Shown: positions 13,532-15,039 of the stretch, piece by piece
Position numbering within the stretch: position 1 is the stretch's first letter
How the letters are laid out: each line of letters opens with the position of its first letter
Origin: Carnobacterium jeotgali MS3
GTDB taxonomy: Bacteria; Bacillota; Bacilli; Lactobacillales; Carnobacteriaceae
Length of the DNA: 64,000 nucleotides
Direction of reading: 5' to 3'
Assembly: GCF_000745125.1 (NCBI RefSeq)
Contig: NZ_JQNF01000005.1
Location: 1 to 64,000 of the forward strand
The notes under the pieces: generated by a model
What the model saw: only the letters and a program-made list of their open reading frames with translations
Database searches by the model: none
Told to the model about the DNA's origin: nothing
Position numbers and translations under genes: made by a program

Positions 13532-14407
13532 TTAGGAATGATTTAAATAATAAAGGACTTCTTTGTCGAGTTCTTTTTTTAATGGAAAATCTTCAAGTGC
13601 TTCCAATAAGTTAAATCCTTTTTGAATCCATACTTCAGCTTCAGTTTTAGCTAGTTTAGTTAAAATAATGCCTTTTCGTACATATAAGACACCAAGTATA
13701 CGGTATCTTTCCTTTTCTTTACTTAATAGTATTAAAGAATCTGCTTTTTCAAGAGCTTGTTCGTAATTTTTATTTTCCATTAATAAGTAGATTAAATTCA
13801 TCGAATAAGCCATTTTTAAAGCGATAGCCTCATGAAAGTGGCTATAATGTTCTAATTCAACCAACGCACGCTTTGAAATAAAAAGTGAGGTATCAAAATC
13901 AAAGAAAAAAAGAATATTATTCAATAATCGTAATTCTGTTAGGTACCATTTATCTAGTTGAGAAATACGATGCCAAACTTTTTCAGCATAAGGTGCTGCT
14001 TGTGTTAAATCATTGGTTTTCGAAAGTGTGATAAGAGCATCACAAATATAATAGATATCTTGGATAATATTATCTTTGTGATCAGTTAAATAATTCTTTG
14101 TCGTTTCTCTAACATTTATCAAAATATTTATATCCGTATTTACAGCCATAGTTCTAAATTGATAGAGTATAGCATCTTTTCCTTTTAATTGATAGTCGTT
14201 ATGGATATAGTTAAACTCTTCATGAGTCATATCTAAATTATTTAAAATCTGAAAATATTTAGTGATAGTTGGAACAATATTGCCCATTTCAAACTTAGTA
14301 TAAGTCGAGCGTGCCATTGCTTCTTGTGCAACATATTGTTGAGTATAGCTTTTGTTTTCTCTTATTTTTTTAAAATCCACACCAAAATTTTGACGGATAT
14401 GTGACAT
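13532..14407 (-). CDS. rgg: Rgg/GadR/MutR-family regulator
   Basis: This is a 291-residue cytoplasmic regulator of the RRNPP class. The N-terminal HTH (about 8-65) contains IRENKSYTQQYVAQEAMARSTYTKFE, typical of Rgg proteins. The rest is helical and TPR-like, the part that binds a short peptide in this class. The start is ATG 14407 with GAAGAAGG upstream; an upstream in-frame TTG is less likely. It is divergent from a tiny hydrophobic peptide gene at 14507, the layout of streptococcal Rgg-SHP quorum-sensing pairs. Targets beyond that promoter are unknown. Confidence 0.88.
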   Translation of the reverse strand: MSHIRQNFGVDFKKIRENKSYTQQYVAQEAMARSTYTKFEMGNIVPTITKYFQILNNLDMTHEEFNYIHNDYQLKGKDAILYQFRTMAVNTDINILINVRETTKNYLTDHKDNIIQDIYYICDALITLSKTNDLTQAAPYAEKVWHRISQLDKWYLTELRLLNNILFFFDFDTSLFISKRALVELEHYSHFHEAIALKMAYSMNLIYLLMENKNYEQALEKADSLILLSKEKERYRILGVLYVRKGIILTKLAKTEAEVWIQKGFNLLEALEDFPLKKELDKEVLYYLNHS

Positions 14408-14438
14408 TAACAAACCTTCTTCCAATAAAAAAATGTGA

Positions 14439-14482
14439 TTATATGAACATTATATAAGATAGTATAAATCATTTGCTATAAT
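14439..14482 (+). promoter_or_regulatory. Putative Rgg operator and shp promoter
   Basis: TATAAT at 14477-14482 has no recognisable -35. Instead an inverted repeat TTATAT-N7-ATATAA spans 14439-14457, centred about 41 bp before the expected start near 14489. That is the place where an activator would replace a -35 contact. The site lies between the divergent rgg and peptide genes and could serve both. Confidence 0.5.
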
Positions 14483-14506
14483 TAAGTCAAAGATAGGAGG
14501 GATTAC

Positions 14507-14575
14507 ATGAAAAAGGTATTAAAAAAATTAATAGCATTTCTACCTGTAATCTGGTTTATTGGCGGTGGAGGCTAG
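14507..14575 (+). CDS. shp: Short hydrophobic peptide (SHP-like pheromone precursor)
   Basis: This is a 22-codon gene with an excellent ribosome-binding site (ATAGGAGGG, 7 nt before ATG). The peptide starts MKKVLKKL and ends VIWFIGGGG: a basic start, hydrophobic middle and glycine-rich end. Streptococcal SHP precursors share this design (MKK start, 20-25 residues, often ending in GG). They are exported, trimmed, re-imported by the oligopeptide permease and bound by Rgg. Divergence from an rgg gene supports the same role. The mature form is not deducible from the sequence. Confidence 0.72.
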   Translation: MKKVLKKLIAFLPVIWFIGGGG

Positions 14576-14628: not shown

Positions 14629-14668
14629 AGTAAGAGTCAGCTGATACATAACTGTCTCTTACTTGTCA
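14629..14668 (+). terminator. Possible weak terminator after shp
   Basis: A stem with AGTAAGAG and CTCTTACT arms (one internal mismatch, extended by CAG/CTG) is followed by a T-rich but interrupted stretch. It could partly end the shp transcript or allow read-through into the next gene. Confidence 0.4.
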
Positions 14669-14714: not shown

Positions 14715-14981
14715 ATGGAAGCAAATGTAAGAAGAGTAAGAACTAGCTATGCTTATATTCTTGAAGGAAAAAATGTTTGCAATACTTTGCCCGTAGATGA
14801 AGATGACTTGATTGAAAATGCTGATGGAATTCTTGATTGCCCGCTCGATGGTGTGCTAAGAAAGCATAAATTATCTTTAAGTGACTTAAATACGATGAAA
14901 ACGACAAAGTTATTATTTGTAAAAGTAGAGGACAAAAGAACAATTGTCTTAAATACGATTCGCTTGAATGTAAACATATAA
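14715..14981 (+). CDS. Hypothetical protein, 88 aa
   Basis: I do not recognise this protein. It is 88 residues, soluble, and has no signal or membrane segment. The middle contains a run of acidic residues (VDEDDLIENADG). AGGAGGG precedes the ATG, so translation is likely. It is the first gene downstream of the peptide-pheromone gene in the same direction, with only a weak hairpin between them, so it may be part of the Rgg response. That link is inference. Confidence 0.6.
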   Translation: MEANVRRVRTSYAYILEGKNVCNTLPVDEDDLIENADGILDCPLDGVLRKHKLSLSDLNTMKTTKLLFVKVEDKRTIVLNTIRLNVNI

Positions 14982-15008: not shown

Positions 15009-15039
15009 AAAGCGTTGATATAAAAATTGACGCTTTTTT
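15009..15039 (+). terminator. Terminator after the 88-aa gene
   Basis: A 7-bp stem (AAAGCGT with ACGCTTT) has a long A/T-rich loop and is followed by T residues. Confidence 0.55.

Follow-up and report, generated by a model that had tools for sequence, protein, structure and literature searches.

The window analysed here (the whole stretch of 64,000 nucleotides from Carnobacterium jeotgali MS3) contains a gene for an Rgg-type regulator, adjoined by a small ORF that is absent from the annotation and whose translation is short, basic and hydrophobic. Pairs of Rgg regulators and SHP pheromones have been described as concentrated in streptococci (PMC13361665), and the question raised by this locus is whether a regulator and its own peptide are encoded here, in a host of another group. 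Our analysis indicates that the two genes are a real, conserved and probably functional peptide–receptor pair; the probability that this pair is autoinducing and employs a pheromone with a tryptophan core is, in our estimate, about 80%. The small ORF most likely encodes a secreted signal by which the regulator is switched on; this would be a bacterial peptide signal of a kind that has been little explored, from a host that is not a streptococcus.

Organisation of the locus

The following features were distinguished (positions within the window):
13532–14407, minus strand: rgg, Rgg-family regulator of 291 aa, with an N-terminal HTH and an all-helical C-terminal domain
14432–14451, strand not applicable: predicted Rgg operator, AATGTNNNTATANNNACATT = AATGTgatTATAtgaACATT, dyad AATGT-N3-TATA-N3-ACATT, invariant in 9/9 orthologous gaps
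14461–14490, minus strand: predicted rgg promoter, TTGACT - 18 - TATACT, a weak site matching the consensus at only 10/12 positions
14474–14482, plus strand: extended -10 of the peptide gene, TGCTATAAT, without an evident -35 (read from the sequence)
14495–14500, plus strand: ribosome-binding site AGGAGG of the peptide gene; GGAGGGAT is kept in 9/9 loci
14507–14575, plus strand: peptide gene, MKKVLKKLIAFLPVIWFIGGGG, 22 codons, ATG start and TAG stop, predicted pheromone precursor
14630–14662, plus strand: stem-loop in the spacer that separates q88 from the peptide gene, GTAAGAG/CTCTTAC core
14715–14981, plus strand: q88, 88-aa protein of a family without a name, NADGxxDCP signature, possible co-transcribed target
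15009–15036, plus strand: terminator-like stem-loop after q88 (consensus scan)

The assignment of the regulator to the Rgg family, made in the first-pass annotation, was borne out by two kinds of comparison. Its product scored above the Pfam cut-offs for Rgg_C (40.5 bits, cut-off 27) and HTH_3 (27.3 bits, cut-off 23), and below the cut-off for TIGR01716 (34.1 bits, cut-off 36.9). The AlphaFold model, built from nine orthologues (mean pLDDT 72, with residues 1-72 of low confidence), was compared by Foldseek with known structures, and the five best matches were the Rgg/RRNPP receptors Rgg2, Rgg144 (twice), PlcR and lmo0325 (E ≤ 3.4e-4, TM 0.51–0.61). The gene starts with the ATG at 14407 (minus strand), and an in-frame TTG lies further upstream, at 14425.

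The same annotation had placed opposite rgg a 22-codon gene with a strong ribosome-binding site, and its ATG, AGGAGG and TAG are all present. The shared gap between the two ATG codons (14407 on the minus strand and 14507) comprises positions 14408–14506 and is, as had been claimed, 99 bp long. A TATAAT without a -35 had also been noted there; it belongs to the extended -10 listed above. In the aligned loci this region reads TTTGCTATAAT in six loci of genus g1 and TTTG[CG]TATACT in three of genus g3. The predicted promoter of rgg has to be considered weak, since promoter-like sites are no more common in this region than in shuffled sequences (9 in comparison with a mean of 10.1 in the consensus scan).

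ORFs of this kind are rare in the window, where only two ATG-started frames of 15–40 aa are directly preceded by GGAGG or AGGAG (at 14507 and 39094). This rarity, together with the recovery of the peptide in 9 of 18 genomes of the family (E ≤ 2.6e-5), argues that the ORF is more than a product of chance. The peptide itself produced no match in Pfam or NCBIfam up to E 1.

Conservation of the peptide and its regulator

An orthologue of the regulator, 56–84% identical, is encoded in nine of the 18 family genomes, and a profile search recovered the peptide in exactly these nine; the two genes occur apart in none of the 18. All six genomes of g1 and three of the five of g3 are involved. Since six of the nine loci come from a single genus, they cannot be counted as nine independent cases. 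The next peptide-like matches had E values of 0.25 or worse. Across the nine loci (and hence in every orthologue-bearing genome of the Carnobacteriaceae set, the comparison which the first-pass annotation had proposed as a check) the peptide gene is divergent from rgg, at a distance of 98–133 nt from the aligned rgg start. The outcome which that annotation had named as refuting its reading, orthologous loci with rgg but no conserved small frame, was thus not observed. In two other g3 genomes (G014 and G016) the rgg orthologue, the peptide and q88 are all absent, and trxA is directly followed by a hydrolase gene.

Beyond the family, the peptide profile detected in 395 genomes of the order only the nine and one partial, unrelated match, and when 398 genomes sampled from the class were searched, its sole match was that of the window. 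The partial match (G394, E 0.004) was rejected as a tenth peptide genome: it falls within a frame of 63 residues that is unrelated, and the stretch examined contains no Rgg.

The orthologous precursors are 22–26 aa long and have a basic N-terminus. Ten residues (M1, K2, K6, L8, L12, P13, W16, F17, G19 and G20) are invariant in all nine. For the six g1 species the pN/pS ratio of the ORF was 0.27 in frame, compared with 0.82 and 2.36 when the two alternative frames were read, and the last 11 codons gave pN 0.038 and pS 0.365; judged from these substitution patterns, the C-terminus of the peptide is under purifying selection. The four terminal glycines, singled out earlier as a notable feature, are present in the peptide of the window. 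However, they are not essential, because one orthologue (G007) ends in GG.

The nine regulators formed one clade (support 100/99) in a tree of 44 Rggs, from which frames shorter than 250 aa and repeats of identical last 250 residues had been left out. That a non-streptococcal Rgg is paired here with its own, divergently encoded peptide is an interpretation strongly supported by the 9/9 co-occurrence, by the purifying selection and by an invariant dyad within the gap.

A conserved dyad in the shared gap

This dyad, AATGT-N3-TATA-N3-ACATT, occurs exactly once in every one of the nine genomes, and no exact copy was found in six other genomes searched. We place its centre at about -48 relative to the predicted start site of the peptide gene. 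A different element, the inverted repeat TTATAT-N7-ATATAA centred near -41, had first been put forward. The repeat does exist (14439–14457) but is not conserved: one or both of its arms are changed in five of the nine aligned loci, including all three of g3. It was thus rejected as the operator, and the proposed position near -41 gives way to that near -48.

Further targets of the operator were likewise rejected at the one-mismatch sites inspected. The genome of the window contains three sites with one mismatch, two of which are inside long ORFs, while the third has no ORF of ≥100 aa around it. A one-mismatch site common to G003 and G004 lies within a GTPase-like ORF.

Comparison with known Rgg systems

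The locus resembles the streptococcal Rgg/SHP systems of groups I and II in having an Rgg receptor, a divergent gene of about 20–30 codons and a precursor with a basic N-terminus, a hydrophobic body and a glycine-rich end. According to PMC13361665, SHPs of these groups are encoded divergently and carry Asp (group I) or Glu (group II) at the mature N-terminus, as exemplified by SHP2 (DILIIVGG) and SHP1509 (ETIIIIGGG). In contrast, the peptide of the window has neither residue at its presumed mature start, contains a Trp-Phe core, and comes from a locus with q88 as a neighbour in a non-streptococcal host. Asp and Glu are missing from all six g1 peptides, and in g3 the only such residue is D at precursor position 4, in two of the three. 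As the groups are defined in that source, the window peptide is therefore not a group I or II SHP. The likeness to SHP precursors, which the first-pass annotation had recognised, extends to the divergent layout (9/9 loci) and not to the acidic residue. The peptide nevertheless probably works in the manner of a group I/II SHP.

The other classes distinguished in the same source do not fit either. The shp gene of group III is described as convergent and overlapping the end of rgg, whereas the gene found here is divergent and separated by 99 bp from the rgg start; LCPs are described as leaderless (about 8–10 aa), whereas the present precursors have 22–26 aa and a basic N-terminus. The nearest precedent we found for an SHP-like peptide with Trp and without an acidic residue is RtgS (PMC7018657). 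As presented there and in PMC13361665, the RtgR/RtgS system of Streptococcus pneumoniae employs the peptide AIIFPWGWPI, with a Trp-Gly-Trp motif. The divergent, SHP-like precursor is shared with our locus; the peptide sequence with its Trp-Gly-Trp is different, and the target given for RtgR is a peptide transporter locus. RopB/LCP pairs have been reported from Carnobacteriaceae too, and an activator of the RopB type is said to act at defective promoters (PMC10518010). Their peptides, as described, are also encoded divergently from the regulator gene; unlike the precursor of the window with its basic N-terminal part, they are mostly of 8–10 aa and have no leader.

In the survey of PMC10075063 the SHP partners of Rgg were consistently not recognised by SignalP as Sec-exported, and RRNPP pairs were counted in two gene clusters of Carnobacteriaceae; PMC9765709, by its method, reports no propeptide genes next to Rgg. 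The present pair may already be among those listed with PMC10518010 or PMC10075063. Our search of the literature (mostly non-subscription) for Rgg of Carnobacterium or Carnobacteriaceae and for the core strings gave, among the papers listed, none on this system.

Proposed mechanism

The arrangement of the locus suggests the following model. A promoter dependent on an activator (an extended -10 without a -35) would drive expression of the 22-residue precursor, which, once translated, would leave the cell and be processed to a C-terminal fragment of approximately PVIWFIGGGG. This mature peptide would be re-imported and bind the repeat domain of Rgg, and the complex would in turn bind the AATGT-N3-TATA-N3-ACATT operator and activate the peptide gene (rather than relieve its repression), generating positive feedback. 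The complex would probably activate q88 along with the peptide gene. As the operator is located just downstream of the predicted rgg start (defined by the weak promoter mentioned above), bound Rgg may also limit the expression of rgg.

Genes of EcsB (PptB-like), TIGR00054 (RseP, Eep-like) and SBP_bac_5 oligopeptide-binding proteins scored above cut-off in all five genomes searched of the nine. These are common genes and hence carry little weight for the complete quorum-sensing circuit that the first-pass annotation had inferred; their presence permits the export and import route of SHPs and is no proof of it.

Sister Rgg lineages and precursors with a Trp core

The most interesting part of the picture lies outside the region to which attention was first drawn: one Trp core is found in different precursor formats beside sister Rgg lineages. 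The Rgg profile matched 50 of 395 genomes of the order at E ≤ 1e-50. Upstream DNA was collected for 87 Rgg matches after repeats of identical first 300 bases had been left out, and a second tree, of 73 rows, was built without matches below 125 bits and frames shorter than 240 aa. Both trees have long branches, and midpoint rooting served for drawing only.

In the 44-Rgg tree the clade of nine stands beside that of the q88-adjacent Rggs. These nearest relatives form a clade of 15 rows, each of them beside a q88 gene (L217 included), and their gaps contain no conserved peptide candidate, only scattered small ORFs (13 loci; 8 named loci). The same was found at six paralogue loci of g1, where no tiny ORF is shared. 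In the 73-row tree the clade to which the Rgg of the window belongs (24 rows, 95/91) is accompanied by a clade with longer precursors (34 rows, 99/95), and the 58-row group uniting these sister clades has a support of 94/81, which is under the starred level. Of the 34 rows, 19 were labelled as having a precursor (3 of these with a different ending) and 15 have none. Taken together with the absence of a candidate in the 15-row q88-adjacent clade, this suggests that Rggs of such kind may work without a peptide, which counts against the model.

The longer precursors (39–56 aa) are signal-peptide-like, as judged by eye, and represent several lineages. (i) In g33 (family f4) they have 53–56 aa and end, for example, in YSTNMIWFIG, YSPYIIWFIG or YSPNIIWLIG, at nine of the ten loci of the subclade. 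At the tenth (L192) the precursor is present with an altered end and has lost the Trp; a second Rgg paralogue of g33 (10 rows) has no ORF with a W-core. (ii) In g58, also of family f4, precursors of 42–47 aa ending in GDVWLIGGE, GDIWLIGGW and similar sequences are found at 5/5 loci. (iii) In family f6, precursors of 39 and 42 residues with TTG starts end in PTAIWLIGT and TTGIWLIGTGPT, at two of the five loci of the group; L010, L011 and L013, also of f6, have no W-core precursor. Wherever the sister clade has a W-core precursor (16 loci), the stretch examined shows no q88.

An ORF with the strict motif W[FL][IM]G and a ribosome-binding site was detected at 26 of the 73 tree loci, namely the nine, the 16 just described for the sister clade, and one of family f7 (L016). 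Although this motif was written post hoc, with the peptide sequences already known, the opposite strand gave 0/73 and 50 dinucleotide shuffles a mean of 0.22/73. Three loci labelled as signal-peptide-like (L199, L201 and L202) have a different ending and stand outside the strict motif.

Based on these sequences, there may be a broader family of pheromones outside the streptococci, in which the 22-residue precursor is one format among others. In a more specific version of this idea, to which we give an even chance, a single core, W[FL][IVM]G, serves one Rgg clade of non-streptococci in at least two formats (22–26 residues, SHP-like, and 39–56 residues, signal-peptide-like); the receptor and the core would have been kept, the precursor and probably the export route exchanged, and the system of the window lineage placed before an older, trxA-linked q88. 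By eye, these sister precursors resemble those of RRNPP pairs with Sec-exported propeptides, but the receptor here is an Rgg.

A conserved pair in Carnobacteriaceae, with relatives of similar core elsewhere in the order, would extend signalling of the Rgg/SHP type to other lactic acid bacteria, for which we found little in print. It would also offer a case for studying how the precursor and export route of a pheromone can be replaced while the receptor is kept, and it would yield short synthetic peptides suited to testing.

Several minor observations concern other Rggs. More distant members are adjoined by looser Trp-containing candidates, some of 11–13 aa without a leader. In f7, at five loci of one genus (L016, L210, L213, L214 and L215), very short, leaderless-looking divergent ORFs stand beside Rggs (MTALIFWILGG and ML[TN]FLTSVNWLF). 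In f6, divergent frames near Rggs (L199, L200, L201, L202 and L205), several of them of about 60 aa, end in GV[WFYL][FL]PG[GD][LI]EDE-[LV]P, possibly a related but different C-terminal code. A plasmid search revealed no copy of one g33 precursor, and 25 records with Rggs of 24–31% identity.

The q88 gene and alternative explanations

The peptide gene is followed by q88 in all nine loci, 139–195 nt beyond the end of the ORF. The terminator-like stem-loop comes after q88, so the two genes may form one unit (the region contains two terminator-like sites, compared with a mean of 0.8 in shuffles). The stem at 14630–14662, defined by alignment of six g1 spacers, has 12 pairs, and for three of them at least one sequence has both partners changed; the consensus scan did not pick it as a terminator. 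Of 198 genomes of the order, 31 encode a homologue of q88. Among 41 named q88 loci (from Pisciglobus, Desemzia, Atopococcus, Alkalibacterium, Marinilactibacillus and Lacticigenium), 19 adjoin trxA and show no Rgg in the stretch examined, 8 adjoin an Rgg gene and the remaining 14 adjoin neither. The proposed pair would give this family, so far without a name, a regulatory context. Comparison of 36 members with Pfam and NCBIfam gave best E values of only 0.016 and 0.029, and PDB/Foldseek searches no match at E ≤ 0.001; the ubiquitin matches contained no stretch that passed alone, and no assignment of a function to q88 was convincing.

These data bear on an alternative in which the small ORF encodes a cis-acting leader (an attenuator or arrest peptide) controlling q88, with rgg as an incidental neighbour. 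The constant position of the ORF upstream of q88, the stem-loop conserved between them in g1, and the C-terminus as the most conserved part of the peptide would all suit such a role. Nevertheless, the peptide tracks rgg and not q88, which is often present without it, as at the 19 trxA-linked loci lacking an Rgg; a peptide profile run over 161 loci yielded nothing beyond the nine except weak partial frames (best E 6e-4 for L056 and 0.005 for L042), and the 16 W-core loci of the sister clade have no q88 nearby. We consider a leader function improbable.

The short, basic and hydrophobic sequence, tightly paired with a regulator, might also be that of a membrane-active or toxin-like peptide under Rgg control, with no signalling role. 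This seems very improbable to us: the layout of the locus fits known pheromone loci, and the part that is conserved, the C-terminal core, is found again beside sister Rggs, where it terminates precursors that are much longer and have other N-termini. That the ORF arose by chance and was retained through overlap with regulatory DNA or RNA is hardly credible. Parts of the gap are strongly conserved, as such an origin would require, but the pattern of codon changes fits the frame of the ORF and neither of the other two, and g1 and g3 keep the end of the protein although their DNA differs. We therefore retain the autoinducing peptide–receptor pair as the preferred explanation.

Within that explanation, the place of q88 as an indispensable target is disfavoured, because in G001 it is interrupted while rgg and the peptide gene are intact. 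At this locus (L033, 1712-3041) q88 is broken at about residue 61 by an insert of approximately 1 kb with a long transposase-like frame, which we take to be IS30-like.

Observations on further q88 loci

A paralogue of q88 stands beside a second rgg in six of six g1 genomes (L045–L050, that is G005, G004, G002, G003, G001 and G000, respectively). In all of them an ATT follows AAGTAGGG, and an in-frame stop lies just upstream of that ATT. Five of the six have no ATG, GTG or TTG between the stop and the conserved part, and L049 has one ATG four codons on. The sequence therefore suggests a conserved AUU start codon for this paralogue. In the trxA–q88 stretch of a further genome (L102, G009), AAGGTGG precedes a three-codon ORF, ATG CCA AAG TAA.
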